Position numbers and translations under genes: made by a program
In this document: positions 9,208 through 48,901 of the stretch, piece after piece
Layout of the letters: each line of letters starts with the position of its first letter
Position numbering within the stretch: the first letter of the stretch is position 1
Source: Topomyia yanbarensis
Lineage: Eukaryota > Arthropoda > Insecta > Diptera > Culicidae
DNA: 64,000 nt
Reading direction: 5' to 3'
NCBI RefSeq assembly: GCF_030247195.1
Contig: NW_026683351.1
Span: forward strand, 1-64,000
The notes under the pieces: model-generated
The model's input: only the letters and a program-made list of their open reading frames with translations
Database searches by the model: none
Told to the model about the DNA's origin: nothing

Positions 9208-9297
9208 CTCACGGGTTGAACGAACAAAATAAGAGCGAATGTAAAAACACGTCTATACCGCGCGAACAAATAACGAACACTCCATCATAGGAACAAA

Positions 9298-10132
<835 letters not shown>

Positions 10133-19321: not shown

Positions 19322-20220
19322 GATGGGTGGGTAATGTCTAGGACATAACCGGAGTGTCGTGACTACTCGTTTGACTTGTAATTCAAATCGAATGATACTC
19401 AATGAAATATGTGGGAATGTTTCAAGTTATTCTTTATAATAATTATGGTGGTTCTGAAAAGAACCTTTGTTGTTGGCGTCTGCGTTGATCGGGGATGCGC
19501 TGGATTCTAAGCTCGTTGAGACATTCATTCATGAAATGAACAAATTTCATATTTTCTTGCTTTGAACTATCAATGTTAAAATCTCTCGAAACAACCATCG
19601 GAATCTTTTCCGTACAGAAATGAACACGCTTAGCGAAAAACTAGGGGCGGGTAATGTCCGGGACATAACCGCGATGCTCATATTCTTAAAATTCTGCTTG
19701 TATCTCCTTCAAATGGCTAAATTTTGCGCATTAAGTTCGATTCACCGGGCTCAGCGAAATTTTCCTGGGGATCCCGTTCGTTAGTATATTCAGCAAAACA
19801 ATTTTATTACCGAGTTCTCCGCGTTGAATACAGGTCAATAATTTCATATAATGATTTCAACATGCAGACAATGTACATGTATGACAGGTGGGAGTGTTCT
19901 GAAGTGGTTTTAGTGGAGGTAACAACATAAAATCATGTATTGGACATTTTACAATGATTCTCCTTAACCCTGCAAAACCACGTGGTTGGCAGCAGAGGGT
20001 TAAGTTGTTTGGAAGAGATGACAGTTAATATATGATAACTAAAAATATAAAATTGTTCTATAAATTGCAAAGTTATTGCCGCGTTGACCTGAAAATTTGT
20101 CATTTCATTCATAAAGGAACAATCATTGAAATTATGTCAATTTATGCTTTGCAAGATTTGAAATAACTTCGAAGTGTGGTCACGACACCCCTGTTATGTC
20201 ATATACATTACCAACCCATC
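19322..20220 (-). repeat. Type I 3' module, block 2
   Basis: Essentially the same as 2094-2992, including the histone stem-loop (about 19450-19465), the internal CTAG hairpin end and the 40-bp palindrome. Confidence 0.65.
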
Positions 20221-21678
20221 TTTTTCCATTTTGCCTTTGTCCTAATAAGGACGGTTTGTGGATAACTATGTTGATACAAGACGGGAATCTTTTAAAACAA
20301 TTCAAACCTTGCAGACGATTGTTTTTACTGCGTACATCCATACGATCTTTCCCCTTTCGCAGCTCACGCCGAATGAGCACACTTTTCATCAAGCTGTTCC
20401 TATTTATTGACTTTACAATGCAGATGGAAGGATGTCCTTTTGTTCGATAAATGAAAATATTTTCATCATTCGTTTTGGTGTAGCTTTCGCTTAGTGGCAG
20501 AGTTGCCACATTCACTGATTTTCTTGGAAGGATTTGCAAAAACCTTCGGGTTTGTAGATTGGAAAAACATTTTCTTATGATTCACTGGTAAAAGTACAGA
20601 ATTACCAAGTGCAAACTTAATACTAGTTAATAAAAGAAACTTTCTAATTAAATTCTTTTTCCATTTTGCCTTCGTCCTAATAAGGACGGTTTGTGGATAA
20701 CTATGTTGATACAAGACGGGAATCTTTTAAAACAATTCAAACCTTGCAGACGATTGTTTTTACTGCGTACATCCATACGATCTTTCCCCTTTCGCAGCTC
20801 ACGCCGAATGAGCACACTTTTCATCAAGCTGTTCCTATTTATTGACTTTACAATGCAGATGGAAGGACGTCCTTTTGTTCGATAAATGAAAATATTTTCA
20901 TCATTCGTTTTGGTGTAGCTTTCGCTTAGTGGCAGAGTTGCCACATTCACTGATTTTCTTGGAAGGATTTGCAAAAACCTTCGGGTTTGTAGATTGGAAA
21001 AACATTTTCTTATGATTCACTGGTAAAAGTACAGAATTACCAAGCGCAAACTTAATACTAGTTAATAAAAGAAACTTTCTAATTAAATTCTTTTTCCATT
21101 TTGCCTTTGTCCTAATAAGGACGGTTTGTGGATAACAATGTTGATTCAAGACGGGAATCTTTTAAAACAATTCAAACCTTGCCGACGATTGTTTTTACTG
21201 CGTACATCCGTACGATCTTTCCCCTTTCGCAGCTCACACCGAATGAGCACGGTTTTCATCATGGTGTTCCTTTTTATTGACTTTACAATGCAGATGGAAG
21301 GACGTCCTTTTGTTCGATAAATGAAAATATTTTCATCATTCGTTTTGGTGTAGCTTTCGCTTAGTTGCCACATTCACTGATTTTCTTGGAAGGATTTGCA
21401 AAAACCTTCGGGTTTGTAGATTGGAAAAACATTTTCTTATGATTCACTGGTAAAAGTACAGAATTACCAAGCGCAAACTTAATACTAGTTAATAAAAGAA
21501 ACTTTCTAATTAAATTCTTTTTCCATTTTGCATTCGTCCTAATAAGGACGGTTTGTGGATAACTATGTTGATACAAGACGGGAATCTTTTAAAACAATTC
21601 AAACCTTGCCGACGATTGTTTTTACTGCGTACATCCATACGATCTTTCCCCTTTCGCAGCTCACACCGAATGAGTACG
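20221..21678 (-). repeat. Family 1 histone-stem-loop array, block 2
   Basis: Four stem-loops in units of about 425-435 bp, essentially identical to 2993-4450. No coding function is supported. Confidence 0.75.
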
Positions 21679-21801
21679 CTTTGCAGTCTTCGATGTTTTG
21701 GTGGCATTTTTAGTGGCAGTTACTACCGCTTTTTCAGTGACTGCGTTTCTTAGCCTTTGGCTTTTTGGCCTTCTCACCGCCACCACCTCCACCAACGTTT
21801 T
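21679..21801 (-). pseudogene. Histone H1 pseudogene, left part, split by a type II element
   Basis: The C-terminal-domain H1 fragment as at 4451-4587 is broken at its T-run (CAACGTTTT) by the type II element starting at 21802. The remainder resumes at 36399 with TTTTTCTGCTTCTC. The extra Ts mark the insertion point. Confidence 0.75.
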
Positions 21802-21859
21802 GACGTAGGACTTACGTCTTTCTTTACTATACTGGGTGTCATTTCAAAATTTTCAAAAC

Positions 21860-22171
21860 GGATGCGTTACGTACACTTTGAACCTTAATAACTTTTCTCC
21901 TACTAAAGGAATTACTAATATTGTTTCATAAATCGAAAGGAAAACGTTCAACGCTTGCTATTGATACCTTGTTTGCTATGTAAAACTTGTTTAAAAAGTT
22001 CAAAAACTACTTTTAATGCGAATCAACATTAATGCTAGAACCTATAAATATGGGTGTCACAGTTTTTCTTAAAGCCAGACGTGTCTAAGCCACAGAGCAG
22101 AACACACGTACGTGTGCTGCTCAACGAGAAGCTGCATTTGGACTATCAACCAAATCATAGCTACTGCCTTA
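21860..22171 (+). promoter_or_regulatory. Histone-like promoter of the H3 pseudogene
   Basis: CTATAAATA at 22042-22050 is followed by a leader homologous to the one before the H1 pseudogene in type I elements (shared words include GTTCAACGCTTGCTA and TTCAAAAACTACTTT). It is a diverged paralogue of 4588-4870. The distal ACGAGCGAGA / GCGATAGTAGTG region of type I is not present here. Confidence 0.6.
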
Positions 22172-22437
22172 TTGCTGCCAACCAAGAACTGTCGTCGCCC
22201 TGCGTGAAATTCATCGCTCTCAGAAGTGGACAGAGTTACTAATTCACAAGCTGCTCTTCCAGTGCCTGGTCCGTGAGATTGCACAGCATTTCAAAACCGA
22301 TCTACTCTTCCGGAGCTCGGCCGTAATGGCCCTCTAAGAAGCCAGCGAGGCCTGCCTGGTTAGTTTGTTAGAAGATACCAATCTTTGCGCTATCCATACC
22401 AAGCGAATAATCATCATGCCGAGCGGGAAACGGCGAA
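22172..22437 (+). pseudogene. Histone H3 pseudogene
   Basis: This aligns with H3 from about codon 39 onward: [39 protein letters not shown], a stop, then [20 protein letters not shown]. The whole N-terminal tail is missing. A CAA codon has become TAA at 22335-22337, there are many replacements, and the last residues ([12 protein letters not shown]) are deleted. A histone-like stem-loop follows. An inverted copy lies at 33139-33404. It cannot encode a working H3. Confidence 0.88.
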
Positions 22438-22455
22438 ATAATATTCACAACAAAC

Positions 22456-22471
22456 GGTTCTAATTAGGACC
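22456..22471 (+). terminator. H3-pseudogene stem-loop remnant
   Basis: GGTTCTAATTAGGACC keeps a 6-bp stem with one T:G pair but has an AATT loop instead of TTTC. The preceding CAAAC and following CACAAAA resemble the native H3 context at 10171-10196. Confidence 0.75.
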
Positions 22472-22795
22472 ACAAAATCGTTCTCAGAAGAATTACAATT
22501 GAAATTTCCATTTCGTGCTATGGAAAATAACTTCCCTCTTATCGGGTTAGTTATTTTCTATAATAATATCCGAAAAATGTACGATAAAACTAATAAACTG
22601 ACCAAGTTTATTGAAGTTGCCGATTTGTTTTCCAACGTCAATTATTTGCGCTGTGTTGTACGGAACAAACAGATTTTTGCGCGATTCGTTGGGAAATAAT
22701 CAAAACAATTGTGTAGTAGATTCCGTAGATTTTACCGTAAATTTTGATAGATTTTGTAAAAGCATTAATTAGCCTGCTTTGATTGGTGGTTTTTG
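22472..22795 (+). other. Type II internal spacer between H3 pseudogene and array
   Basis: AT-rich DNA of unknown origin with one 66-codon ORF lacking family features. An inverted copy lies at about 32781-33104. Confidence 0.5.
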
Positions 22796-25027
22796 ATAAT
22801 CTTTCAAGAACATTAGTAAATGTGGCAACCCTGCTACTAAGCGAAAGCTACACCAAAAAGAATGATGAAAATATTTCCATTTGTCGCACAAAAGGATGGA
22901 CTTCCATCTGCACTAAGAAGTTTATAAAAGAGATCGCATTGCGATATACAATGCTCATTCGATGTGAGCTGCGAAAGGGGAATGTTCGTGTATGTACGCA
23001 GCAGAAGCGAGTTCGGGCAAGGTTCGAATCGTTAGAAAGGATTCTCGTCTGGTATCACCAAAAATAGTTATCTGCAAACCGTTATTTTTAGGATGAAAAC
23101 ATAATGGAGAAAGAATTGAATTAGAAAGTTCCATTTAACAACTTGCATTGAGTTTGCGCCTGCCAAGTCTGCTGTACTTTATCAGTGACACATATAAACC
23201 AATGTTTACCGAATTAATCTACAAACTACTAAGCGAAAGCCACACCAAAAAGAATGATGAAAATATTTCCATTTGTCGCACAAAAGGATGGACTTCCATC
23301 TGCACTAAGAAGTTTATAAAAGAGATCGCATTGCGATATACAATGCTCATTCGGTGTGAGCTGCGAAAGGGGAATGTTCGTGTATGTACGCAGCAGAAGC
23401 GAATTCGGGCAAGGTTCGAATCGTTAGAAAGGCTTTTCGTCTGGTATCACCAAAAATAGTTATCTGCAAACCGTTCTTTTTAGGATGAAAACATAATGGA
23501 GAAAGAATTGAATTATAAAGTTCCATTTAATAACTTGGATTGAGTTTGCGCCTGTCAAGTCTGCTGTACTTTATCAGTGACACATATAAACCAATGTTTA
23601 TCGAATTAATCTACAAACCCGTAGGTTTTCGCAAATCTTTCAAGAACATTAGTGAATGTGGCAACCCTGCTACTAAGCGAAAGCCACACCAAAAAGAATG
23701 ATGAAAATATTTCCATTTGTCGCACAAAAGGATGGACTTCCATCTGCACTAAGAAGTTTATAAAAGAGATCGCATTGCGATATACAATGCTCATTCGATG
23801 TGAGCTGCGAAAGGGGAATGTTCGTGTATGTACGCAGCAGAAGCGAATTCGGGCAAGGTTCGAATCGTTAGAAAGGCTTTTCGTCTGGTATCACCAAAAA
23901 TAGTTATCTGCAAACCGTTCTTTTTAGGATGAAAACATAATGGAGAAAGAATTGAATTATAAAGTTCCATTTAATAACTTGGATTGAGTTTGCGCCTGTC
24001 AAGTCTGCTGTACTTTATCAGTGACACATATAAACCAATGTTTATCGAATTAATCTACAAACCCGTAGGTTTTCGCAAATCTTTCAAGAACATTAGTGAA
24101 TGTGGCAACCCTGCTACTAAGCGAAAGCCACACCAAAAAGAATGATGAAAATATTTTCATTTGTCGCACAAAAGGATGGACTTCCATCTGCACTAAGAAG
24201 TTTATAAAAGAGATCGCATTGCGATATACAATGCTCATTCGATGAGAGCTGCGAAAGGGGAATGTTCGTGTATGTACGCAGCAGAAGCGAGTTCGGGCAA
24301 GGTTCGAATCGTTAGAAAGGATTCTCGTCTGGTATCACCAAAAATAGTTATCTGCAAACCGTTCTTTTTAGGATGAAAACATAATGGAGAAAGAATTGAA
24401 TTATAAAGTTCCATTTAATAACTTGGATTGAGTTTGCGCCTGTCAAGTCTGCTGTACTTTATCAGTGACACATATAAACCAATGTTTATCGAATTAATCT
24501 ACAAACCCGTAGGTTTTCGCAAATCTTTCAAGAACATTAGTGAATGTGGCAACCCTGCTACTAAGCGAAAGCCACACCAAAAAGAATGATGAAAATATTT
24601 CCATTTGTCGCATAAAAGGATGGACTTCCATCTGCACTAAGAAGTTTATAAAAGAGATCGCATTGCGATATACAATGCTCATTCGGTGTGAGCTGCGAAA
24701 GGGGAATGTTCGTGTATGTACGCAGCAGAAGCGAATTCGGGCAAGGTTCGAATCGTTAGAAAGGCTTTTCGTCTGGTATCACCAAAAATAGTTATCTGCA
24801 AACCGTTCTTTTTAGGATGAAAACATAATGGAGAAAGAATTGAATTATAAAGTTCCATTTAATAACTTGGATTGAGTTTGCGCCTGTCAAGTCTGCTGTA
24901 CTTTATCAGTGACACATATAAACCAATGTTTATCGAATTAATCTACAAACCCGTAGGTTTTCGCAAATCTTTCAAGAACATTAGTGAATGTGGCAACCCT
25001 GCTACTAAGCGAAAGCCACACCAAAAA
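22796..25027 (+). repeat. Family 2 tandem array, 444-bp units with histone-like stem-loops
   Basis: Five units before the nested type I element, with three more after it (34959-36250). Spacing is 444 bp for most units; one early unit is shorter. Each has the H1-tail-like segment GCTACTAAGCGAAAGCCAC, then CGTTCTTTTTAGGATG, which folds as a 6-bp stem with two wobble pairs and a TTTT loop, then GGAGAAAGAATTGAATTA as a U7-like element. The units are homologous to family 1 but well diverged. ORFs of 62-103 codons repeat with the unit and have no family signature. Confidence 0.72.
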
Positions 25028-25926
25028 GATGGGTGGGTAATGTCTAGGACATAACCGGAGTGTCGTGACTACTCGTTTGACTTGTAATTCAAATCGAATG
25101 ATACTCAATGAAATATGTGGGAATGTTTCAAGTTATTCTTTATAATAATTATGGTGGTTCTGAAAAGAACCTTTGTTGTTGGCGTCTGCGTTGATCGGGG
25201 ATGCGCTGGATTCTAAGCTCGTTGAGACATTCATTCATGAAATGAACAAATTTCATATTTTCTTGCTTTGAACTATCAATGTTAAAATCTCTCGAAACAA
25301 CCATCGGAATCTTTTCCGTACAGAAATGAACACGCTTAGCGAAAAACTAGGGGCGGGTAATGTCCGGGACATAACCGCGATGCTCATATTCTTAAAATTC
25401 TGCTTGTATCTCCTTCAAATGGCTAAATTTTGCGCATTAAGTTCGATTCACCGGGCTCAGCGAAATTTTCCTGGAGATCCCGTTCGTTAGTATATTCAGC
25501 AAAACAATTTTATTACCGAGTTCTCCGCGTTGAATACAGGTCAATAATTTCATATAATGATTTCAACATGCAGACAATGTACATGTATGACAGGTGGGAG
25601 TGTTCTGAAGTGGTTTTAGTGGAGGTAACAACATAAAATCATGTATTGGACATTTTACAATGATTCTCCTTAACCCTGCAAAACCACGTGGTTGGCAGCA
25701 GAGGGTTAAGTTGTTTGGAAGAGATGACAGTTAATATATGATAACTAAAAATATAAAATTGTTCTATAAATTGCAAAGTTATTGCCGCGTTGACCTGAAA
25801 ATTTGTCATTTCATTCATAAAGGAACAATCATTGAAATTATGTCAATTTATGCTTTGCAAGATTTGAAATAACTTCGAAGTGTGGTCACGACACCCCTGT
25901 TATGTCATATACATTACCAACCCATC

Positions 25927-26700
25927 TTTTTCCATTTTGCCTTTGTCCTAATAAGGACGGTTTGTGGATAACTATGTTGATACAAGACGGGAATCTTTTA
26001 AAACAATTCAAACCTTGCAGACGATTGTTTTTACTGCGTACATCCATACGATCTTTCCCCTTTCGCAGCTCACGCCGAATGAGCACACTTTTCATCAAGC
26101 TGTTCCTATTTATTGACTTTACAATGCAGATGGAAGGACGTCCTTTTGTTCGATAAATGAAAATATTTTCATCATTCGTTTTGGTGTAGCTTTCGCTTAG
26201 TGGCAGAGTTGCCACATTCACTGATTTTCTTGGAAGGATTTGCAAAAACCTTCGGGTTTGTAGATTGGAAAAACATTTTCTTATGATTCACTGGTAAAAG
26301 TACAGAATTACCAAGCGCAAACTTAATACTAGTTAATAAAAGAAACTTTCTAATTAAATTCTTTTTCCATTTTGCCTTTGTCCTAATAAGGACGGTTTGT
26401 GGATAACTATGTTGATTCAAGACGGGAATCTTTTAAAACAATTCAAACCTTGCCGACGATTGTTTTTACTGCGTACATCCGTACGATCTTTCCCCTTTCG
26501 TAGCTCACACCGAATGAGCACGGTTTTCATCATGGTGTTCCTTTTTATTGACTTTACAATGCAGATGGAAGGACGTCCTTTTGTTCGATAAATGAAAATA
26601 TTTTCATCATTCGTTTTGGTGTAGCTTTCGCTTAGTTGCCACATTCACTGATTTTCTTGGAAGGATTTGCAAAAACCTTCGGGTTTGTAGATTGGAAAAA
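25927..26700 (-). repeat. Family 1 array, left part in block 6
   Basis: Two stem-loop-bearing units interrupted at ATTGGAAAAA by II-b; the array resumes at 33775 with AAAACATTTTC. Confidence 0.7.
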
Positions 26701-26809
26701 CTAGGAGTGGGTAATGTCCGGGACATAACCGCGGTGTTGACGTAGGACTAAACTTGGGCATATCATATGACATTCATGGATAATTTGAACCAATGCACTT
26801 TTTGAATGA

Positions 26810-27696
26810 ATGTTTACGGAAATTTCATGTCGAATGAGATTGCCACATTCACTGATTTTCTAGGACTTGCAAAAACCTTCGGGTTTGTAGATTAATTTGA
26901 TAAACATTTGCTTATATGAATCACTGGTACATGTACAGAAGAATTGACAGGCGCAAACTCAATCCAAGTTATTAAATGGAACTTTCTAATTCAATTCTTT
27001 CTCCATTATGTTTTCATCCTAATAAGAACGGTTTGCAGATAACTATTTTTGGTGATACCAGACGAGAATCCTTTCTAACGATTCGAACCTTGCCCCCGAA
27101 TTCGCTTCTGCTGCGTATATACATGAACCCCTTTCGCAGCTCACATCGAATGAGCATTGTATATCGCAATGCGATCTCTTTTATAAACTTCTTAGTGCAG
27201 ATGGAAGTCCATCCTTTTGTGCGACAAATGGAAATATTTTCATCATTCTTTTTGGTGTGGCTTTCGCTTAGTAGCAGGGTTGCCACATTCTCTAATGTTC
27301 TTGAAAGATTTGCGAAAACCTACGGGTTTGTAGATTAATTCGATAAACATTGGTTTATATGTGTCACTGATAAAGTACAGCAGACTTGACAGGCGCAAAC
27401 TCAATCCAAGTTATTAAATGGAACTTTATAATTCAATTCTTTCTCCATTATGTTTTCATCCTAAAAAGAACGGTTTGCAGATAACTATTTTTGGTGATAC
27501 CAGACGAGAATCCTTTCTAACGATTCGAACCTTGCCCGAACTCGCTTCTGCTGCGTACATACACGAACATTCCCCTTTCGCAGCTCACATCGAATGAGCA
27601 TTGTATATCGCAATGCGATCTCTTTTATAAACTTCTTAGTGCAGATGGAAGTCCATCCTTTTGTGCGACAAATGGAAATATTTTCATCATTCTTTT
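26810..27696 (-). repeat. Family 2 array, 3' part of II-b
   Basis: Two stem-loop units plus a degenerate partial unit next to the II-b 3' end. It matches the sequence leading to 36398 in inverted orientation apart from the missing unit. Confidence 0.65.
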
Positions 27697-28488
27697 GTCG
27701 TGACTAACGACTTACCTTTCAATATAGGGGCCCCTTTTCAAAATTTCGGAAGAAAAATGATGTAAGATTTTGAACGCTTATATCTTTTGTTGTACTGAAT
27801 GGATTTAATCAATTTCTTCGGCATTTTGTCGAAAATATTTGTACCAATGTTGTATTAAATTTTGGAATATGTAGGATATTCATTATCAACGGAAAAATAG
27901 TGTTTTGAAAAATCTTTCGAAAACGTCTCGGAAAAGTGAAAATTTTCAGCCCATCCCGCACAGAGCCGTCAAAATGGTGCAGCAAATGAACAATAAAATA
28001 ATGAAAAGTTTATATAAAGGTCCACTACATGTTTGTTCCTATGATTATTCGTATTGGGTTGCTTGACGAGAGCAGTTGGTGGGGGAAAGCCGGGATATTA
28101 ATTTTGGTTAAGCCATTAGAAGTCGGACGGAAAGGAAAGGCTCATGCACGCCACGAGAACGAGCGAGAAAGCGATAGTAGTGCATATTAGCGAAAGCGTT
28201 ACGTACATTTTGAACGTTAATAACTTTTCTTCTACTAAACGGATTGCCAATCTTGTTTCATAAATCGGAAGGAAAACGTTCAACGCTTGCTACCGATACG
28301 TTGTTTGCTATATAAAATTTGTTTAAATAGTTCAAAAACTACTTTAAATGAGAATCAACATTAATGATAAAACCTATAAATAGGGGTGTCGCAGTTTTTC
28401 TCAAAACCAGACGTGTGTAAGACGCAGTGCATAACAGACGTGCGTGGTCGTGAGAAGCTGCATCGGACGACCAATCAAATCAGCTACC

Positions 28489-28626
28489 ATCGGAGAGAAG
28501 CAGAAAAACGTTGGTGGAGGTGGTGGCGGTGAGAAGGCCAAAAAGCCAAAGGCTAAGAAACGCAGTCACTGAAAAGCGGTAGTAACTGCCACTAAAAATG
28601 CCACCAAAACATCGAAGACTGCAAAG
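28489..28626 (+). pseudogene. Histone H1 C-terminal pseudogene, block 5
   Basis: Reads GGGGEKAKKPKAKK, then a stop and frameshift, then AVVTATKNATKTSK. It is the uninterrupted plus-strand version of the fragment at 4451-4587 and is followed directly by the family 1 array. Confidence 0.8.
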
Positions 28627-29649
28627 CGTACTCATTCGGTGTGAGCTGCGAAAGGGGAAAGATCGTATGGATGTACGCAGTAAAAACAATCGTCGGCAAG
28701 GTTTGAATTGTTTTAAAAGATTCCCGTCTTGTATCAACATAGTTATCCACAAACCGTCCTTATTAGGACGAATGCAAAATGGAAAAAGAATTTAATTAGA
28801 AAGTTTCTTTTATTAACTAGTATTAAGTTTGCGCTTGGTAATTCTGTACTTTTACCAGTGAATCATAAGAAAATGTTTTTCCAATCTACAAACCCGAAGG
28901 TTTTTGCAAATCCTTCCAAGAAAATCAGTGAATGTGGCAACTAAGCGAAAGCTACACCAAAACGAATGATGAAAATATTTTCATTTATCGAACAAAAGGA
29001 CGTCCTTCCATCTGCATTGTAAAGTCAATAAAAAGGAACACCATGATGAAAACCGTGCTCATTCGGTGTGAGCTACGAAAGGGGAAAGATCGTACGGATG
29101 TACGCAGTAAAAACAATCGTCGGCAAGGTTTGAATTGTTTTAAAAGATTCCCGTCTTGAATCAACATAGTTATCCACAAACCGTCCTTATTAGGACAAAG
29201 GCAAAATGGAAAAAGAATTTAATTAGAAAGTTTCTTTTATTAACTAGTATTAAGTTTGCGCTTGGTAATTCTGTACTTTTACCAGTGAATCATAAGAAAA
29301 TGTTTTTCCAATCTACAAACCCGAAGGTTTTTGCAAATCCTTCCAAGAAAATCAGTGAATGTGGCAACTCTGCCACTAAGCGAAAGCTACACCAAAACGA
29401 ATGATGAAAATATTTTCATTTATCGAACAAAAGGACGTCCTTCCATCTGCATTGTAAAGTCAATAAATAGGAACAGCTTGATGAAAAGTGTGCTCATTCG
29501 GCGTGAGCTGCGAAAGGGGAAAGATCGTATGGATGTACGCAGTAAAAACAATCGTCTGCAAGGTTTGAATTGTTTTAAAAGATTCCCGTCTTGTATCAAC
29601 ATAGTTATCCACAAACCGTCCTTATTAGGACAAAGGCAAAATGGAAAAA
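28627..29649 (+). repeat. Family 1 array, block 5
   Basis: Three stem-loops of CGTCCTTATTAGGACG or a near variant, each followed by the GAAAAAG purine element; the last unit runs into the 3' module. Confidence 0.75.
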
Positions 29650-30404
29650 GATGGGTTGGTAATGTATATGACATAACAGGGGTGTCGTGACCACACTTCG
29701 AAGTTATTTCAAATCTTGCAAAGCATAAATTGACATAATTTCAATGATTGTTCCTTTATGAATGAAATGACAAATTTTCAGGTCAACGCGGCAATAACTT
29801 TGCAATTTATAGAACAATTTTATATTTTTAGTTATCATATATTAACTGTCATCTCTTCCAAACAACTTAACCCTCTGCTGCCAACCACGTGGTTTTGCAG
29901 GGTTAAGGAGAATCATTGTAAAATGTCCAATACATGATTTTATGTTGTTACCTCCACTAAAACCACTTCAGAACACTCCCACCTGTCATACATGTACATT
30001 GTCTGCATGTTGAAATCATTATATGAAATTATTGACCTGTATTCAACGCGGAGAACTCGGTAATAAAATTGTTTTGCTGAATATACTAACGAACGGGATC
30101 TCCAGGAAAATTTCGCTGAGCCCGGTGAATCGAACTTAATGCGCAAAATTTAGCCATTTGAAGGAGATACAAGCAGAATTTTAAGAATATGAGCATCGCG
30201 GTTATGTCCCGGACATTACCCGCCCCTAGTTTTTCGCTAAGCGTGTTCATTTCTGTACGGAAAAGATTCCGATGGTTGTTTCGAGAGATTTTAACATTGA
30301 TAGTTCAAAGCAAGAAAATATGAAATTTGTTCATTTCATGAATGAATGTCTCAACGAGCTTAGAATCCAGCGCATCCCCGATCAACGCAGACGCCAACAA
30401 CAAA

Positions 30405-30420
30405 GGTTCTTTTCAGAACC
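30405..30420 (+). terminator. Orphan histone stem-loop in type I 3' module, block 5
   Basis: GGTTCTTTTCAGAACC followed by ACCA matches the consensus exactly, with AAAGAATAACTTG downstream. The upstream sequence shows no confident histone homology. Confidence 0.75.
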
Positions 30421-30548
30421 ACCATAATTATTATAAAGAATAACTTGAAACATTCCCACATATTTCATTGAGTATCATTCGATTTGAATTACAAGTCAAA
30501 CGAGTAGTCACGACACTCCGGTTATGTCCTAGACATTACCCACCCATC

Positions 30549-32780
30549 TTTTTGGTGTGGCTTTCGCTTAGTAGCAGGGTTGCCACATTCACTAATGTTC
30601 TTGAAAGATTTGCGAAAACCTACGGGTTTGTAGATTAATTCGATAAACATTGGTTTATATGTGTCACTGATAAAGTACAGCAGACTTGACAGGCGCAAAC
30701 TCAATCCAAGTTATTAAATGGAACTTTATAATTCAATTCTTTCTCCATTATGTTTTCATCCTAAAAAGAACGGTTTGCAGATAACTATTTTTGGTGATAC
30801 CAGACGAAAAGCCTTTCTAACGATTCGAACCTTGCCCGAATTCGCTTCTGCTGCGTACATACACGAACATTCCCCTTTCGCAGCTCACACCGAATGAGCA
30901 TTGTATATCGCAATGCGATCTCTTTTATAAACTTCTTAGTGCAGATGGAAGTCCATCCTTTTATGCGACAAATGGAAATATTTTCATCATTCTTTTTGGT
31001 GTGGCTTTCGCTTAGTAGCAGGGTTGCCACATTCACTAATGTTCTTGAAAGATTTGCGAAAACCTACGGGTTTGTAGATTAATTCGATAAACATTGGTTT
31101 ATATGTGTCACTGATAAAGTACAGCAGACTTGACAGGCGCAAACTCAATCCAAGTTATTAAATGGAACTTTATAATTCAATTCTTTCTCCATTATGTTTT
31201 CATCCTAAAAAGAACGGTTTGCAGATAACTATTTTTGGTGATACCAGACGAGAATCCTTTCTAACGATTCGAACCTTGCCCGAACTCGCTTCTGCTGCGT
31301 ACATACACGAACATTCCCCTTTCGCAGCTCTCATCGAATGAGCATTGTATATCGCAATGCGATCTCTTTTATAAACTTCTTAGTGCAGATGGAAGTCCAT
31401 CCTTTTGTGCGACAAATGAAAATATTTTCATCATTCTTTTTGGTGTGGCTTTCGCTTAGTAGCAGGGTTGCCACATTCACTAATGTTCTTGAAAGATTTG
31501 CGAAAACCTACGGGTTTGTAGATTAATTCGATAAACATTGGTTTATATGTGTCACTGATAAAGTACAGCAGACTTGACAGGCGCAAACTCAATCCAAGTT
31601 ATTAAATGGAACTTTATAATTCAATTCTTTCTCCATTATGTTTTCATCCTAAAAAGAACGGTTTGCAGATAACTATTTTTGGTGATACCAGACGAAAAGC
31701 CTTTCTAACGATTCGAACCTTGCCCGAATTCGCTTCTGCTGCGTACATACACGAACATTCCCCTTTCGCAGCTCACATCGAATGAGCATTGTATATCGCA
31801 ATGCGATCTCTTTTATAAACTTCTTAGTGCAGATGGAAGTCCATCCTTTTGTGCGACAAATGGAAATATTTTCATCATTCTTTTTGGTGTGGCTTTCGCT
31901 TAGTAGCAGGGTTGCCACATTCACTAATGTTCTTGAAAGATTTGCGAAAACCTACGGGTTTGTAGATTAATTCGATAAACATTGGTTTATATGTGTCACT
32001 GATAAAGTACAGCAGACTTGACAGGCGCAAACTCAATCCAAGTTATTAAATGGAACTTTATAATTCAATTCTTTCTCCATTATGTTTTCATCCTAAAAAG
32101 AACGGTTTGCAGATAACTATTTTTGGTGATACCAGACGAAAAGCCTTTCTAACGATTCGAACCTTGCCCGAATTCGCTTCTGCTGCGTACATACACGAAC
32201 ATTCCCCTTTCGCAGCTCACACCGAATGAGCATTGTATATCGCAATGCGATCTCTTTTATAAACTTCTTAGTGCAGATGGAAGTCCATCCTTTTGTGCGA
32301 CAAATGGAAATATTTTCATCATTCTTTTTGGTGTGGCTTTCGCTTAGTAGTTTGTAGATTAATTCGGTAAACATTGGTTTATATGTGTCACTGATAAAGT
32401 ACAGCAGACTTGGCAGGCGCAAACTCAATGCAAGTTGTTAAATGGAACTTTCTAATTCAATTCTTTCTCCATTATGTTTTCATCCTAAAAATAACGGTTT
32501 GCAGATAACTATTTTTGGTGATACCAGACGAGAATCCTTTCTAACGATTCGAACCTTGCCCGAACTCGCTTCTGCTGCGTACATACACGAACATTCCCCT
32601 TTCGCAGCTCACATCGAATGAGCATTGTATATCGCAATGCGATCTCTTTTATAAACTTCTTAGTGCAGATGGAAGTCCATCCTTTTGTGCGACAAATGGA
32701 AATATTTTCATCATTCTTTTTGGTGTAGCTTTCGCTTAGTAGCAGGGTTGCCACATTTACTAATGTTCTTGAAAGATTAT
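30549..32780 (-). repeat. Family 2 array, 5' part of II-b
   Basis: Inverted copy of 22796-25027 with five stem-loop units. Confidence 0.7.
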
Positions 32781-33138
32781 CAAAAACCACCAATCAAAGC
32801 AGGCTAATTAATGCTTTTACAAAATCTATCAAAATTTACGGTAAAATCTACGGAATCTACTACACAATTGTTTTGATTATTTCCCAACGAATCGCGCAAA
32901 AATCTGTTTGTTCCGTACAACACAGCGCAAATAATTGACGTTGGAAAACAAATCGGCAACTTCAATAAACTTGGTCAGTTTATTAGTTTTATCGTACATT
33001 TTTCGGATATTATTATAGAAAATAACTAACCCGATAAGAGGGAAGTTATTTTCCATAGCACGAAATGGAAATTTCAATTGTAATTCTTCTGAGAACGATT
33101 TTGTGGTCCTAATTAGAACCGTTTGTTGTGAATATTAT

Positions 33139-33404
33139 TTCGCCGTTTCCCGCTCGGCATGATGATTATTCGCTTGGTATGGATAGCGCAAAGATTGGTA
33201 TCTTCTAACAAACTAACCAGGCAGGCCTCGCTGGCTTCTTAGAGGGCCATTACGGCCGAGCTCCGGAAGAGTAGATCGGTTTTGAAATGCTGTGCAATCT
33301 CACGGACCAGGCACTGGAAGAGCAGCTTGTGAATTAGTAACTCTGTCCACTTCTGAGAGCGATGAATTTCACGCAGGGCGACGACAGTTCTTGGTTGGCA
33401 GCAA
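33139..33404 (-). pseudogene. Histone H3 pseudogene, inverted copy
   Basis: Mirror of 22172-22437 in II-b, with the same missing N-terminus, premature stop and C-terminal deletion. Its stem-loop remnant is at 33105-33120. Confidence 0.85.
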
Positions 33405-33774
33405 TAAGGCAGTAGCTATGATTTGGTTGATAGTCCAAATGCAGCTTCTCGTTGAGCAGCACACGTACGTGTGTTCTGCTCTGTGGCTTAGACACGTCTG
33501 GCTTTAAGAAAAACTGTGACACCCATATTTATAGGTTCTAGCATTAATGTTGATTCGCATTAAAAGTAGTTTTTGAACTTTTTAAACAAGTTTTACATAG
33601 CAAACAAGGTATCAATAGCAAGCGTTGAACGTTTTCCTTTCGATTTATGAAACAATATTAGTAATTCCTTTAGTAGGAGAAAAGTTATTAAGGTTCAAAG
33701 TGTACGTAACGCATCCGTTTTGAAAATTTTGAAATGACACCCAGTATAGTAAAGAAAGACGTAAGTCCTACGTC

Positions 33775-34027
33775 AAAACATTTTCTTATGATTCACTGGT
33801 AAAAGTACAGAATTACCAAGCGCAAACTTAATACTAGTTAATAAAAGAAACTTTCTAATTAAATTCTTTTTCCATTTTGCATTCGTCCTAATAAGGACGG
33901 TTTGTGGATAACTATGTTGATACAAGACGGGAATCTTTTAAAACAATTCAAACCTTGCCGACGATTGTTTTTACTGCGTACATCCATACGATCTTTCCCC
34001 TTTCGCAGCTCACACCGAATGAGTACG
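33775..34027 (-). repeat. Family 1 array, right part in block 6
   Basis: Continues the unit interrupted at 26700 and contains one stem-loop before the H1 pseudogene. Confidence 0.65.
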
Positions 34028-34164
34028 CTTTGCAGTCTTCGATGTTTTGGTGGCATTTTTAGTGGCAGTTACTACCGCTTTTTCAGTGACTGCGTTTCTT
34101 AGCCTTTGGCTTTTTGGCCTTCTCACCGCCACCACCTCCACCAACGTTTTTCTGCTTCTCTCCG
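34028..34164 (-). pseudogene. Histone H1 C-terminal pseudogene, block 6
   Basis: Same fragment as 4451-4587, uninterrupted. The TATA-bearing promoter and the element A empty site (near 34615) follow in the 5' direction. Confidence 0.78.
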
Positions 34165-34958
34165 ATGGTAGCTGATTTGATTGGTCGTCCGATGCAGCTT
34201 CTCACGACCACGCACGTCTGTTATGCACTGCGTCTTACACACGTCTGGTTTTGAGAAAAACTGCGACACCCCTATTTATAGGTTTTATCATTAATGTTGA
34301 TTCTCATTTAAAGTAGTTTTTGAACTATTTAAACAAATTTTATATAGCAAACAACGTATCGGTAGCAAGCGTTGAACGTTTTCCTTCCGATTTATGAAAC
34401 AAGATTGGCAATCCGTTTAGTAGAAGAAAAGTTATTAACGTTCAAAATGTACGTAACGCTTTCGCTAATATGCACTACTATCGCTTTCTCGCTCGTTCTC
34501 GTGGCGTGCATGAGCCTTTCCTTTCCGTCCGACTTCTAATGGCTTAACCAAAATTAATATCCCGGCTTTCCCCCACCAACTGCTCTCGTCAAGCAACCCA
34601 ATACGAATAATCATAGGAACAAACATGTAGTGGACCTTTATATAAACTTTTCATTATTTTATTGTTCATTTGCTGCACCATTTTGACGGCTCTGTGCGGG
34701 ATGGGCTGAAAATTTTCACTTTTCCGAGACGTTTTCGAAAGATTTTTCAAAACACTATTTTTCCGTTGATAATGAATATCCTACATATTCCAAAATTTAA
34801 TACAACATTGGTACAAATATTTTCGACAAAATGCCGAAGAAATTGATTAAATCCATTCAGTACAACAAAAGATATAAGCGTTCAAAATCTTACATCATTT
34901 TTCTTCCGAAATTTTGAAAAGGGGCCCCTATATTGAAAGGTAAGTCGTTAGTCACGAC
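34165..34958 (-). promoter_or_regulatory. Promoter and 5' module of block 6 (element A empty site)
   Basis: Contains the captured promoter (CTATTTATAG near 34272-34281, i.e. CTATAAATAG on the minus strand), the ACGAGCGAGA / GCGATAGTAGTG-like distal motif, the uninterrupted ATCATAGGAACAAA site, and the 5' terminal hairpin ending at 34958. Confidence 0.6.
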
Positions 34959-36349
34959 AAAAGAATGATGAAAATATTTCCATTTGTCGCACAAAAGGAT
35001 GGACTTCCATCTGCACTAAGAAGTTTATAAAAGAGATCGCATTGCGATATACAATGCTCATTCGATGTGAGCTGCGAAAGGGGAATGTTCGTGTATGTAC
35101 GCAGCAGAAGCGAATTCGGGCAAGGTTCGAATCGTTAGAAAGGCTTTTCGTCTGGTATCACCAAAAATAGTTATCTGCAAACCGTTCTTTTTAGGATGAA
35201 AACATAATGGAGAAAGAATTGAATTATAAAGTTCCATTTAATAACTTGGATTGAGTTTGCGCCTGTCAAGTCTGCTGTACTTTATCAGTGACACATATAA
35301 ACCAATGTTTATCGAATTAATCTACAAACCCGTAGGTTTTCGCAAATCTTTCAAGAACATTAGTGAATGTGGCAACCCTGCTACTAAGCGAAAGCCACAC
35401 CAAAAAGAATGATGAAAATATTTTCATTTGTCGCACAAAAGGATGGACTTCCATCTGCACTAAGAAGTTTATAAAAGAGATCGCATTGCGATATACAATG
35501 CTCATTCGATGTGAGCTGCGAAAGGGGAATGTTCGTGTATGTACGCAGCAGAAGCGAGTTCGGGCAAGGTTCGAATCGTTAGAAAGGATTCTCGTCTGGT
35601 ATCACCAAAAATAGTTATCTGCAAACCGTTCTTTTTAGGATGAAAACATAATGGAGAAAGAATTGAATTATAAAGTTCCATTTAATAACTTGGATTGAGT
35701 TTGCGCCTGTCAAGTCTGCTGTACTTTATCAGTGACACATATAAACCAATGTTTATCGAATTAATCTACAAACCCGTAGGTTTTCGCAAATCTTTCAAGA
35801 ACATTAGAGAATGTGGCAACCCTGCTACTAAGCGAAAGCCACACCAAAAAGAATGATGAAAATATTTCCATTTGTCGCACAAAAGGATGGACTTCCATCT
35901 GCACTAAGAAGTTTATAAAAGAGATCGCATTGCGATATACAATGCTCATTCGATGTGAGCTGCGAAAGGGGTTCATGTATATACGCAGCAGAAGCGAATT
36001 CGGGGGCAAGGTTCGAATCGTTAGAAAGGATTCTCGTCTGGTATCACCAAAAATAGTTATCTGCAAACCGTTCTTATTAGGATGAAAACATAATGGAGAA
36101 AGAATTGAATTAGAAAGTTCCATTTAATAACTTGGATTGAGTTTGCGCCTGTCAATTCTTCTGTACATGTACCAGTGATTCATATAAGCAAATGTTTATC
36201 AAATTAATCTACAAACCCGAAGGTTTTTGCAAGTCCTAGAAAATCAGTGAATGTGGCAATCTCATTCGACATGAAATTTCCGTAAACATTCATTCAAAAA
36301 GTGCATTGGTTCAAATTATCCATGAATGTCATATGATATGCCCAAGTTT
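34959..36349 (+). repeat. Family 2 array, 3' part of II-a
   Basis: Three further units with stem-loops, the last diverged and partial, then about 100 bp of unique DNA before the asymmetric inverted repeat of the II-a 3' end. Compared with II-b there is one extra 444-bp unit. Confidence 0.68.
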
Positions 36350-36398
36350 AGTCCTACGTCAACACCGCGGTTATGTCCCGGACATTACCCACTCCTAG
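36350..36398 (+). repeat. Type II 3' terminus: inverted repeat, hairpin and CTAG
   Basis: AGTCCTACGTC is the complement of the first 11 bases of the element. A 21-bp hairpin follows at 36369-36389 (GGTTATGTC paired with GACATTACC), then CACTC and the terminal CTAG. The T-run of the interrupted H1 pseudogene comes next. The same end lies at 26701-26750 on the other strand, and a related CTAG-ended hairpin sits inside each type I 3' module. Confidence 0.68.
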
Positions 36399-36416
36399 TT
36401 TTTCTGCTTCTCTCCG
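36399..36416 (-). pseudogene. Histone H1 pseudogene, remaining part
   Basis: Continuation of 21679-21801 on the other side of II-a: TTTTTCTGCTTCTCTCC. Confidence 0.7.
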
Positions 36417-36861
36417 ATGGTAGCTGATTTGATTGGTCGTCCGATGCAGCTTCTCACGACCACGCACGTCTGTTATGCACTGCGTCTTACACACGTCTGG
36501 TTTTGAGAAAAACTGCGACACCCCTATTTATAGGTTTTATCATTAATGTTGATTCTCATTTAAAGTAGTTTTTGAACTATTTAAACAAATTTTATATAGC
36601 AAACAACGTATCGGTAGCAAGCGTTGAACGTTTTCCTTCCGATTTATGAAACAAGATTGGCAATCCGTTTAGTAGAAGAAAAGTTATTAACGTTCAAAAT
36701 GTACGTAACGCTTTCGCTAATATGCACTACTATCGCTTTCTCGCTCGTTCTCGTGGCGTGCATGAGCCTTTCCTTTCCGTCCGACTTCTAATGGCTTAAC
36801 CAAAATTAATATCCCGGCTTTCCCCCACCAACTGCTCTCGTCAAGCAACCCAATACGAATA
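36417..36861 (-). promoter_or_regulatory. Captured histone-like promoter, block 2
   Basis: Same as 4588-5032; CTATAAATAG on the minus strand at 36524-36533. Confidence 0.6.
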
Positions 36862-37141
36862 ATCATAGGAACAAATGATTTGATATTGATAAATGATATT
36901 TATTTTTAGTTTTTGTCGATGGCTAACATATTAAATTTTTAAGTGACACAGAATATTTCTTTACATCTTTAGTACTAAGCTATTTGTAATTTATATTGAA
37001 ATTTTTTAGACTAATTTGTCTTGAAATGATGGACCACCTTGGTGGATAGTTTTGTTTAGAAGCAAAGTTGGGAAATAAACTACTTAAAACTACTATATAC
37101 ACCTTAAATCTACTATATACAACTTAACCTACTATTTACAC

Positions 37142-39796: not shown

Positions 39797-41036
39797 ACTG
39801 GATGATAAATTTTCCTAGCACTTGAATCTGCTCGGGCTTATTTCGGCACTTGCGAAGCGCACCGGTCATGTTGACGAATATTTCCATCAGTTCATCTGCA
39901 GAGAACAGATCGGGGTTGTTGTTTTGTGGTGTTGGTCTCCGGAATCCAGGGGGGAGGGGTGGAGATCCTTGCTCGGCGGAAGCACTAGGAGTATCTGGAC
40001 GGAACGCAGATTGCACCTGCGAAGGTAGCGGCGGAAAATCAGTTGCATTGAAGACTGGAGCTTTTTCCTTCTTGCGACCCGGTTGGTTGATGGCTGCAGC
40101 CTGCTTTCGAATGCGTTTGAACTCCTCTCGTTTCGGACACTGTTTGTCTGTACTTTGATGAGCACATTTGCAGTTGGCGCATTTAAACGGCGCAGTTTTG
40201 TCCTTAAGGCAGTCAGACGTGGCATGATTTTTAGCGCAATTGTTGCAGCGTGGGTTGATGTTACAGTTGCGGGTACCGTGCCCGAAGTTAAGACAACGCT
40301 GGCACTGTGTTACGTCACGACGACCGCCACGATATGGTTCCCAGCGGATGATGATCGAGAATAAGGTACGGATTGCTTTCAGAGCGTTGAGCGTTACCGT
40401 TCCCTTCCGAAAGTGAACTAGGAAAAGGCTGTCCGGATACTTTTTATCCTCTTCGTCTTTTCTCGTCATCCGGAAAACAGCAGTTGGTTCTAGTTTGTAC
40501 CGGTCCACGATTTCCCTTTCAATCGTCTTGACGTCAAAGTTCGGTAGACCCCTGATGACAACCTTGAAGAGCTTATCACCGGGAATGTCATGTGTGAAAT
40601 ATTCCGCTTTGGATTCCTGCAGAAATTTCACAACCAGATCGAAATCGTCTTTCTTTTGTAGCATCACCTTGGTTCCAATGCGCGTTAATTTATATTCTGC
40701 TTTTACACCCATAGCAGCGAAGTTGCTTACGAGCGTCTCAAGCGGCACTTTTTTAACCACCAATGGTGGAAGTTTTATCTTAACTGCATCCTGTACAGCA
40801 GCATGGTTTGGAGAAGGCTTTTGCGTGGTTGGAAGTGGGTCCGGTGGGGCAGTAGTACTGCAAATGCTGACGTCGTCAACCGAACCGAACGATGAACGCT
40901 CGCTTCTAGAGCGAACAGAATTTTGTTTCCTCTTTAGGCTGGCAGCCTGCTGCGATGAATCACTGCCCGACGATAGGATTCCAGCGCCAGGCTTCTTCTT
41001 CCTCTTCGGCCTGTTACGGCCCTTCCCTTTACTCAT
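39786..41036 (-). CDS. Element A ORF1, copy 2
   Basis: A 416-residue Gag-like protein with three CCHC knuckles, identical in translation to the copy at 7957-9207 as far as I can see; it overlaps ORF2 by 11 bp. Confidence 0.92.
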   Translation of the reverse strand: MSKGKGRNRPKRKKKPGAGILSSGSDSSQQAASLKRKQNSVRSRSERSSFGSVDDVSICSTTAPPDPLPTTQKPSPNHAAVQDAVKIKLPPLVVKKVPLETLVSNFAAMGVKAEYKLTRIGTKVMLQKKDDFDLVVKFLQESKAEYFTHDIPGDKLFKVVIRGLPNFDVKTIEREIVDRYKLEPTAVFRMTRKDEEDKKYPDSLFLVHFRKGTVTLNALKAIRTLFSIIIRWEPYRGGRRDVTQCQRCLNFGHGTRNCNINPRCNNCAKNHATSDCLKDKTAPFKCANCKCAHQSTDKQCPKREEFKRIRKQAAAINQPGRKKEKAPVFNATDFPPLPSQVQSAFRPDTPSASAEQGSPPLPPGFRRPTPQNNNPDLFSADELMEIFVNMTGALRKCRNKPEQIQVLGKFIIQYGV

Positions 41037-41126
41037 CTCACGGGTTGAACGAACAAAATAAGAGCGAATGTAAAAACACGTCTATACCGCGCGAACAAAT
41101 AACGAACACTCCATCATAGGAACAAA

Positions 41127-41461
41127 CATGTAGTGGACCTTTATATAAACTTTTCATTATTTTATTGTTCATTTGCTGCACCATTTTGACGGCTCTGTGC
41201 GGGATGGGCTGAAAATTTTCACTTTTCCGAGTCGTTTTCGAAATATTTTTCAAAACACTATTTTTCCGTTGATAATGAATATCCTACATATTCCAAAATT
41301 TAATACAACATTGGTACAAATATTTTCGACAAAATGCCGAAGAAATTGATTAAATCCATTCAGTACAACAAAAGATATAAGCGTTCAAAATCTTACATCA
41401 TTTTTCTTCCGAAATTTTGAAAAGGGGCCCCTATATTGAAAGGTAAGTCGTTAGTCACGAC
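41127..41461 (-). repeat. Type I 5' module, block 2
   Basis: Same as 9298-9632, ending with the hairpin at 41447-41461. To its right AAAAGGAAATGCG restores the H1-H4 spacer. Confidence 0.62.
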
Positions 41462-45969: not shown

Positions 45970-46868
45970 GATGGGTGGGTAATGTCTAGGACATAACCGG
46001 AGTGTCGTGACTACTCGTTTGACTTGTAATTCAAATCGAATGATACTCAATGAAATATGTGGGAATGTTTCAAGTTATTCTTTATAATAATTATGGTGGT
46101 TCTGAAAAGAACCTTTGTTGTTGGCGTCTGCGTTGATCGGGGATGCGCTGGATTCTAAGCTCGTTGAGACATTCATTCATGAAATGAACAAATTTCATAT
46201 TTTCTTGCTTTGAACTATCAATGTTAAAATCTCTCGAAACAACCATCGGAATCTTTTCCGTACAGAAATGAACACGCTTAGCGAAAAACTAGGGGCGGGT
46301 AATGTCCGGGACATAACCGCGATGCTCATATTCTTAAAATTCTGCTTGTATCTCCTTCAAATGGCTAAATTTTGCGCATTAAGTTCGATTCACCGGGCTC
46401 AGCGAAATTTTCCTGGGGATCCCGTTCGTTAGTATATTCAGCAAAACAATTTTATTACCGAGTTCTCCGCGTTGAATACAGGTCAATAATTTCATATAAT
46501 GATTTCAACATGCAGACAATGTACATGTATGACAGGTGGGAGTGTTCTGAAGTGGTTTTAGTGGAGGTAACAACATAAAATCATGTATTGGACATTTTAC
46601 AATGATTCTCCTTAACCCTGCAAAACCACGTGGTTGGCAGCAGAGGGTTAAGTTGTTTGGAAGAGATGACAGTTAATATATGATAACTAAAAATATAAAA
46701 TTGTTCTATAAATTGCAAAGTTATTGCCGCGTTGACCTGAAAATTTGTCATTTCATTCATAAAGGAACAATCATTGAAATTATGTCAATTTATGCTTTGC
46801 AAGATTTGAAATAACTTCGAAGTGTGGTCACGACACCCCTGTTATGTCATATACATTACCAACCCATC
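45970..46868 (-). repeat. Type I 3' module, block 3
   Basis: Same as 2094-2992, with the orphan histone stem-loop near 46098-46113. Confidence 0.65.
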
Positions 46869-48319: not shown

Positions 48320-48456
48320 CTTTGCAGTCTTCGATGTTTTGGTGGCATTTTTAGTGGCAGTTACTACCGCTTTTTCAGTGACTGCGTTTCTTAGCCTTTG
48401 GCTTTTTGGCCTTCTCACCGCCACCACCTCCACCAACGTTTTTCTGCTTCTCTCCG
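48320..48456 (-). pseudogene. Histone H1 C-terminal pseudogene, block 3
   Basis: Same fragment, stop and frameshift as 4451-4587. Confidence 0.8.
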
Positions 48457-48901
48457 ATGGTAGCTGATTTGATTGGTCGTCCGATGCAGCTTCTCACGAC
48501 CACGCACGTCTGTTATGCACTGCGTCTTACACACGTCTGGTTTTGAGAAAAACTGCGACACCCCTATTTATAGGTTTTATCATTAATGTTGATTCTCATT
48601 TAAAGTAGTTTTTGAACTATTTAAACAAATTTTATATAGCAAACAACGTATCGGTAGCAAGCGTTGAACGTTTTCCTTCCGATTTATGAAACAAGATTGG
48701 CAATCCGTTTAGTAGAAGAAAAGTTATTAACGTTCAAAATGTACGTAACGCTTTCGCTAATATGCACTACTATCGCTTTCTCGCTCGTTCTCGTGGCGTG
48801 CATGAGCCTTTCCTTTCCGTCCGACTTCTAATGGCTTAACCAAAATTAATATCCCGGCTTTCCCCCACCAACTGCTCTCGTCAAGCAACCCAATACGAAT
48901 A
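48457..48901 (-). promoter_or_regulatory. Captured histone-like promoter, block 3
   Basis: Same as 4588-5032; CTATAAATAG on the minus strand at 48564-48573. Confidence 0.6.

Follow-up and report, generated by a model that had tools for sequence, protein, structure and literature searches.

A histone gene array in the mosquito Topomyia yanbarensis raises the question of why mobile elements inserted among histone genes should themselves carry parts of histone genes. The stretch analysed here (the window, 64,000 nucleotides) is C130:1-64000, part of an unplaced 76-kb contig. The array fills the window, and the intact reading frames are those of H3, H2A, H2B, and H1 and of two H4 genes. The H1 protein encoded here is 99% identical to T. 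yanbarensis histone H1 across 74% of its length. Inserted in it are two related types of element, here called type I and type II, which are almost certainly Helentrons, in this case non-autonomous ones (HINEs). The transposase gene of most autonomous relatives examined is followed by a histone 3′ stem-loop, and this 3′ end may have placed transposase production under the control of the histone expression machinery. The genome searched comprises 1.168 Gb, with C1 (chromosome 1), C3, C130, and C603 among its contigs; L0-L4 are nested elements in the window, while L049, L067-L070, L118, and L130-L135 are genomic stretches outside it.

Ends of the elements and their autonomous partners

The ends and internal repeats that define the two types are best seen in the following features, all on the plus strand.

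27697..27711, +, type I 5′ palindromic subterminal repeat GTCGTGACTAACGAC (end search)
28623..29651, +, type I tandem repeats, unit 427 bp
30505..30548, +, type I 3′ end: subterminal repeat, hairpin, and CCATC, with a T-run next
21802..21818, +, type II 5′ palindromic subterminal repeat GACGTAGGACTTACGTC (end search)
23226..25029, +, type II tandem repeats, unit 444 bp

The type I 5′ end GTCGTGACTAACGAC is present in six exact copies in the window, where shuffled sequences give an expectation of 0.06 at up to two mismatches. Two exact copies of the type II 5′ end GACGTAGGACTTACGTC were found, each of which also gives an opposite-strand match with three mismatches (four rows), against a shuffle expectation of 0.08 at up to three mismatches. 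In both types, inverted 10-base copies of the 5′ end lie near the 3′ end, forming palindromic subterminal inverted repeats, and a hairpin, GGTTATGTC..GACATTACC, precedes the 3′ end. The 3′ end reads TAGTCACGAC..GGTTATGTC-CTA-GACATTACCCACCCATC in type I and GTCCTACGTC..GGTTATGTC-CCG-GACATTACCCACTCCTAG in type II, followed in each case by a T-run, with CCATC and CTAG, respectively, as the terminal letters and T-runs as flanks. Hairpins, 10-base inverted copies, CCATC/CTAG ends, and T-run flanks are thus all present as given in a preliminary description of this locus, and a single minus-strand type I element occupies exactly the span that it had assigned to the elements, 19322-41461 (5′ end 41461, 3′ end 19322). 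Type I is itself composite, since it contains an inverted, diverged copy of its own 3′ end and also a 3′ end of the CTAG type (window 29652-29717 and 30190-30229).

In order to find autonomous partners, the genome was searched with the PF14214 profile, which gave 112 matches. Seven loci were sampled as 20-kb stretches, two with a type I 5′ end upstream and the others with long frames of the same family. In six of the seven, a Rep gene is bounded by a type I 5′ end on one side and a type I-like 3′ end on the other, over 11-14 kb, and in the seventh only the 3′ end was found. The frame of 1681 codons is whole in six stretches, five of which have both ends, and is interrupted at C1:40.7 Mb; it encodes Rep (PF14214), PIF1 helicase (PF05970), and C-terminal endonuclease (PF03372) domains. 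The autonomous partner that the preliminary description had called for is thereby located, and the element sharing the ends encodes these three activities instead of the transposase of a terminal inverted repeat (TIR) element. The partner protein is 48% identical over 99% of the query to a protein of Galendromus occidentalis, which we take to be Metaseiulus, the mite of the founding Helentron paper. Relatives with about 65% protein identity are present in Aedes albopictus. Canonical Helitrons share with types I and II the Rep-helicase, the 3′ hairpin, and, for type II only, the CTAG end. They differ in their insertion between A and T and lack of subterminal inverted repeats, where types I and II show T-runs and subterminal repeats; in addition, an endonuclease is present here, and type I ends in CCATC.

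The first 1,840-1,955 bp of window type I, including the H1 piece, promoter, and repeats described below, are 96-98% identical to the partner in six of the seven stretches, and the last 184 bp are 78-79% identical. Given the former value, the histone pieces on the 5′ side belong to the autonomous element, of which type I is a derivative. For a Culex HINE, an identity of >95% to its partner is reported (PMC4067079). For type II, the 3′ end (the only end matched) is letter-identical behind an endonuclease-bearing frame in L069, which is the 1564-aa frame by position, not by reading through, and the beginning of the type II 3′ end was found in L134. A third family, with ends GAAGTAGAATAC, occupies the C3:178.57-Mb stretch and carries pieces of H4, H2B, and H3 together with three stem-loops that exceed the cut-off; the 1673-aa element shares its 3′ subterminal repeat. 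In L049 (C3:178.57-178.58 Mb), this family has a broken H4 gene with a stem-loop, and H2B and H3 pieces lie oppositely oriented within repeats.

In a viral contig collection, the 3′ hairpin pattern and the stem-loop pattern gave no matches, and a Helentron alignment gave four distant helicases only (25-28%). The Helentron search of a genome contig collection gave 34 loci, labelled bacterial.

A histone-type 3′ stem-loop behind the transposase gene

Of 16 transposase-bearing copies examined, 14, from four of six families, have a histone 3′ stem-loop behind the transposase gene; L132 and L135, without a recognisable endonuclease end, were left out, and L133 was counted together with its extension L134. 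Scored with RF00032 (gathering score 34 bits), the 1681 family has the stem-loop in all eight copies (41.3 bits in seven of seven stretches, plus the eighth copy L131), the 1695-type in all three (L067, L070, and L130; 37.4 bits), and the 1673 family in its single copy (L068; 40.0 bits). Both type II partners are positive, L069 with three stem-loops (25.7, 25.7, and 33.9 bits) and L134 with two (25.7 and 34.2 bits). Thirteen of the 14 positive copies have a best stem-loop of more than 34 bits, and L069 has one of 33.9 bits, always on the same strand as the gene and downstream of it. Host histone genes score 24.3 (H1), 27.5 (H2A), 30.2 (H2B), 30.4 (H3), and 34.6-42.8 bits (H4).

The stem-loop comes after the transposase stop codon and ahead of the 3′ subterminal repeat, starting 178-181 nt past the stop in the 1681 and 1695-type tails. 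A purine-rich downstream element was found in all five partner tails scanned and in window type I; as AAGAAT or AGAGAAT, it begins 30-31 nt after the stem-loop start, compared with 33-34 nt in host H3, H2B, and H4 (host H1 and H2A escaped the pattern). Differences within the stem preserve pairing, with GGUUCU/AGAACC versus GGUCCU/AGGACC in alignable 3′ untranslated regions (3′UTRs) and one G-U pair in type II. Over the 26-base stem-loop stretch, the 1681 family and window type I agree at 25 positions, clearly more than their surroundings (74%), while the 1564 tail agrees with 1681 at 18 of 26, which is not clearly above its surroundings (70%). These tails resemble the 3′ ends of replication-dependent histone mRNAs (RF00032) in the 6-bp stem, 4-base loop, flanks, and purine-rich downstream element; unlike in histone mRNAs, the gene that bears the stem-loop here encodes a transposase and is probably interrupted by an intron. 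In L068 (~480-580), the 1673-aa element has a long inverted repeat that separates the transposase stop from the stem-loop.

On the promoter side, all six putative transposase promoters (about four lineages) have a TATA box. The strict E2F-like motif TTTSSCGC is present in one of the six (4-7% of shuffles each reach it), WTTSSCSS in four (17-28% of shuffles), and TTSSCGS in six (17-23%), and TTTTGGCGS, a pattern chosen after looking, in four (0.3-1.7% of shuffles). Given these shuffle rates, E2F sites are weak as proof of S-phase control and were dropped as such.

Histone-derived pieces of type I and type II

The following pieces were identified, all on the plus strand.

22166..22422, +, type II H3 coding fragment, codons ~39-122, frame broken, 83% identity
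22451..22495, +, type II H3-type 3′UTR with weaker stem-loop, 21.1 bits (below the cut-off of 34)
28127..28193, +, type I H3-promoter-like piece, 77% over 48 bp to 45912-45959, E 0.001
28191..28487, +, TATA promoter and leader common to types I and II (TATAAATA near 28375; alignment)
28470..28623, +, type I H1 C-terminal coding fragment, two matched pieces
30400..30445, +, type I histone 3′UTR stem-loop and downstream element (RF00032), 39.9 bits

Against the host histone DNA of the window, the H3 fragment is 83% identical over 257 bp (E 5e-70), and the two H1 pieces give E 5.6e-7 and 1.4e-5, where the best of 40 type I shuffles gave 0.025. An H1 fragment in type I and an H3 fragment in type II, as first described, are borne out by these values, and so are the homologous TATA promoters ahead of the tandem repeats, which are 84% identical over 299 bp. 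An H4-3′UTR-like piece in type I gives E 1e-4, and 79 aligned positions around the type I stem-loop are 72% identical to an H4 3′ end. Because one of 40 type II shuffles reached 7e-6 and another 0.001, the E-values of the H4-3′UTR-like and H3-promoter-like pieces are weak when taken alone. Host histone promoters were considered as the origin of the whole type I/II promoter, and this was rejected, as the match was confined to the 48-bp H3-promoter-like piece.

A fuller H3-like promoter with a TATA box lies in L118 (C470:178500-178590) beside type I-like sequence and upstream of a copy of retrotransposon A (see below), as if a more complete captured H3 promoter existed. The type I repeats (28740-28800 and other units) contain a histone-stem-loop-like hairpin, GTCCTTATTAGGAC, after ACAAAC, with 83% identity over 24 bp to an H3 3′ end (E 1.8); the tandem repeats may derive from a histone 3′UTR.

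Nesting of the elements in the histone array

One type I element, L0, holds four further elements in the order I>II>I>II>I, and four further features of the window are type I copies, two of them with retrotransposon A.

19322..41461, -, L0, type I HINE interrupted by retrotransposon A and L1 (ends; unoccupied site CATTTCCTTTTTCTTTCTCC in the copy c 3′ flank)
21802..36398, +, L1, type II HINE in a T-run of the L0 H1 fragment (unoccupied site CCAACGTTTTTCTGC at 4560-4590)
25028..34958, -, L2, type I HINE within the L1 444-bp repeats (unoccupied site CATTCTTTTTGGTGT at 30980-31010)
26701..33774, -, L3, type II HINE within the L2 repeats (unoccupied site AAATGTTTTTCCAATC at 28860-28890)
27697..30548, +, L4, type I HINE, uninterrupted, 2,852 bp (ends)
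2094..9632, -, copy c, type I with retrotransposon A; its 5′ end adjoins AAAAAA upstream of H3
45970..53501, -, copy d, type I with retrotransposon A (ends)
54141..58432, +, copy b, type I within the retrotransposon C poly(A) tail (unoccupied tail at 42080-42125)
62305..64000, -, copy f, 3′ part of a type I element running off the window (3′ end)

Positions 21797-26701 and 33779-28875 are 100% identical over 4,905 bp in inverted orientation. From this identity, the inner pair L3+L4 is a copy of the outer pair L1+L2; a type II element and the type I element inside it thus jumped together into a copy of type I. Unoccupied T-run sites are present in the window for L1, L2/L4, L3, copy b, and L0. 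Since L0-L4 are surrounded by more Ts in total than the unoccupied sites hold, duplicated Ts are indistinguishable from Ts of the element, a difficulty also reported in PMC4067079.

The flanks of copies c and d do not match: copy c lies between the region just upstream of H3 and the H4-H1 spacer, and copy d between the H4 downstream spacer and a stretch ending CTATAAAAAA. The H3 gene beside copy c (9633-9722) starts from AAAAAATCGG without a TATA box, and the stretch ending CTATAAAAAA, which matches the H3 upstream region (45940-45970), flanks copies d and f. The H3 TATA box thus seems to have been split by type I, with copy c having cut H3 from the upstream part of the box. We infer that type I copies recombined, which would account for the mismatched flanks of copies c and d, and that the H3 TATA box was once an insertion site.

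Three retrotransposons, presumably Jockey-like, are also present in the window.

5047-9283, -, retrotransposon A, endonuclease and reverse transcriptase domains
11246-15457, +, retrotransposon B, endonuclease and reverse transcriptase domains
42088-45016, -, retrotransposon C, endonuclease and reverse transcriptase domains

In all three, the distance from the first base of a TATA box to the first base of a 13-14 bp target duplication is exactly 21 bp, in the orientation of the promoter. Retrotransposon A has 20 genome matches, 16 of them outside C130, and in 13 of these the upstream sequence was read. TATAWA stands 29-42 bp before A in nine of the 13 (seven of 11 distinct flanks), and at one fixed distance this motif occurs at 0.0014 of window positions. 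The targets look like histone and Helentron promoters. This pattern suggests that the retrotransposons are steered, on insertion, to transcription start sites, a short way 3′ of TATA boxes. No relative of the retrotransposon A protein was found in the viral contig collection. A derivation of type I from retrotransposon A, considered for a 15-mer upstream of the A reading frames, was dropped, as A is inserted in type I with its own 14-bp duplication.

Dispersal and target choice

The type I 5′ 20-mer has 810 exact copies in the genome, and its reversed control none. Seven chromosome-1 copies, chosen because both ends already matched, were fetched at both ends; all seven have the same two boundaries and adjoin T-runs, and their flanks differ, so that the termini first proposed hold outside the window too. 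Among the first 100 of the 810 5′ ends (all on C1), none lies in the C1 histone arrays at 155.6 and 164.4-164.5 Mb. A search with the type I 3′ kilobase gave 40 full-length matches (40 of 2,398 candidates scored). Eight of these are on C603 and C130, both histone contigs. Another 13 fall in C3:145.88-146.79 Mb, where two lie among the listed histone genes and one 7 kb beyond. In this set of scored matches, which is not random and gives no measure of enrichment, arrays on C3 and unplaced contigs and their surroundings hold a high density of type I. Strict targeting of histone arrays is unsupported, since the listed C1 5′ ends are all outside the C1 arrays. Of the reinsertion into the histone locus originally suggested, the piling up of elements in the window array stands, while insertion is not strictly aimed at arrays.

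Relation to known elements

We take smart00428 to be an H3 model; for this reason, and because the cited parent spans 408 bp, we read as H3 a Culex fragment that has been assigned to the H4 superfamily. This fragment (smart00428, 84% over 244 bp) and an H15 linker histone fragment (83% over 87 bp) are the two histone fragments described for Helentron-Cq-32A of Culex quinquefasciatus, an element with eight copies, and histone capture was stated there to be undocumented in other organisms at that time (Thomas et al. 2014, PMC4067079). Histone capture by such elements, initially regarded as an undescribed family, has therefore been published, while nesting in a histone array is not described in those passages. 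Helentron-Cq-32A and HINE-Cq-32A resemble types I and II as mosquito Helentrons with palindromic subterminal repeats, a terminal 3′ palindrome, and T-run insertion, and HINE-Cq-32A consists to about one half of tandem repeats (PMC4067079). The passages on the Culex element describe a terminal 3′ stem loop and mention no histone stem-loop after the transposase; array nesting, H4, H2B, and promoter pieces, and multiple stem-loop tails do not appear in these passages either (PMC4067079). DINE-1 and Cg_HINE share the subterminal inverted repeats, 3′ palindrome, central tandem repeats, and noncoding nature of types I and II, but their descriptions, in the parts concerned, mention no histone content (PMC4067079; PMC7492417). 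A literature search, which covered few subscription journals and missed the hyphen-less 'stem loop', found no report linking Helitrons or Helentrons with the histone stem-loop or SLBP. Histone capture is thus already known in kind, and the histone-type 3′ end of a transposase gene is new as far as the searched literature reaches.

Proposed mechanism and alternative explanations

We propose that types I and II transpose by rolling-circle replication through the Rep-helicase-endonuclease of same-ended relatives. Their structure, the partners, and the unoccupied sites show the use of a partner and insertion into T-runs; the rolling-circle strand-transfer chemistry we infer from the protein family. 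The elements and partners carry parts of replication-dependent histone genes (H1 and H3 coding pieces and H3-promoter-like and H4-3′UTR-like pieces, with H4, H2B, and H3 in the third family), among which the stem-loop with its U7-type downstream element, unlike the other pieces, looks kept for use. The U7 system acts at the 3′ ends of replication-dependent histone mRNAs. The SLBP/U7 machinery would cleave the transposase pre-mRNA to a histone-type mRNA without poly(A), and the transposase would thereby be made in S phase, while replicating DNA is at hand. Insertion into T-runs, the elements' own included, and probably recombination between copies would account for the pile-up in the window. 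As a whole this is the best explanation that we can offer, and towards its central step, a histone-type 3′ end giving an S-phase transposase, the sequence evidence inclines us slightly. That a rolling-circle lineage took over the histone expression programme via SLBP/U7, with the type II partners multiplying their stem-loops to two or three, is to us an evenly balanced proposition.

Several observations weigh against this proposal. No stem-loop was found within ~2 kb past the stop in the 2400-aa family, whose frame runs on into what we took by eye for an OTU-like stretch, or in ~750 bp past the stop in the C1:135.1-Mb family. Comparison of the endonuclease stretch puts three of the four positive families at 89-91% likeness, with ~50% for the type II partners, so the positive families represent two deep lineages, not four. 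Canonical poly(A) signals are present in the 1564 and full 1673 tails; AATAAA is absent from the 1681 and 1695-type tails, which is uninformative at such length and base composition. The frame is broken in several stem-loop-positive copies, which may thus be inactive, and a search for U7 snRNA found none, with an equally silent control. An additional exon probably lies upstream of the transposase gene: a 96-aa frame that ends in a splice-like way and recurs beside other copies and families (52 matches). To our knowledge, histone genes lack introns, and such an exon speaks against a simple histone-like gene.

Some of these points would be expected if the stem-loop were a functionless passenger, histone genes having been captured for being abundant and open, which we consider possible but rather doubtful. 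The broken and decayed H3 and H1 fragments make passive carriage conceivable and likewise count against use of the stem-loop, and both the two families without a stem-loop and the window type II stem-loop below the cut-off fit a passenger. Between some families, moreover, the stem-loop letters are not clearly more conserved than their surroundings, which also tells against the proposal: compared with 1681, the 1695-type and 1673 each agree at 21 of 26 positions (81%), with surroundings at 80% and 73%, respectively. A passenger would hardly, however, occupy the same position behind the transposase gene in 14 of the 16 copies and in two deep lineages, score 37-41 bits in type I-like families where host H3, H2A, H2B, and H1 score 24-30, keep its pairing through stem differences, retain a downstream element near the host spacing, and occur two or three times in type II partners.

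For the window, the long identical blocks, and the flanks of copies c, d, and f, which fail to match as exchange between type I copies would give, could point mainly to segmental duplication, gene conversion, or misassembly of the unplaced contig C130 instead of repeated transposition. We consider this improbable, because the boundaries are element-exact, with unoccupied sites, and dispersed copies have unrelated flanks. Slightly less probable still is a stem-loop working on DNA, or blocking transcription before the 3′ terminus, without SLBP/U7: in tails read to the end it does stand shortly before the 3′ subterminal repeat and hairpin, but its loop, flanks, and downstream element fit the histone RNA model and not just any hairpin. 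That the elements are a TIR transposon, a miniature inverted-repeat transposable element (MITE), a short interspersed nuclear element (SINE), or a retrotransposon derivative is hardly credible, for although the subterminal repeats are inverted and retrotransposon A sits within type I, the partner encodes Rep-helicase-endonuclease, a 3′ hairpin is present, and the A copy inside type I has its own 14-bp duplication.

Implications

Such elements can shuffle a histone array, as copy c seems to have done at the H3 TATA box. If the proposed histone-type 3′ end of the transposase gene is real, what Helentrons gain from histone genes would be a cell-cycle switch, not a protein. The histone capture reported in Culex would then have a rationale, and the link between rolling-circle transposition and replication would become testable.

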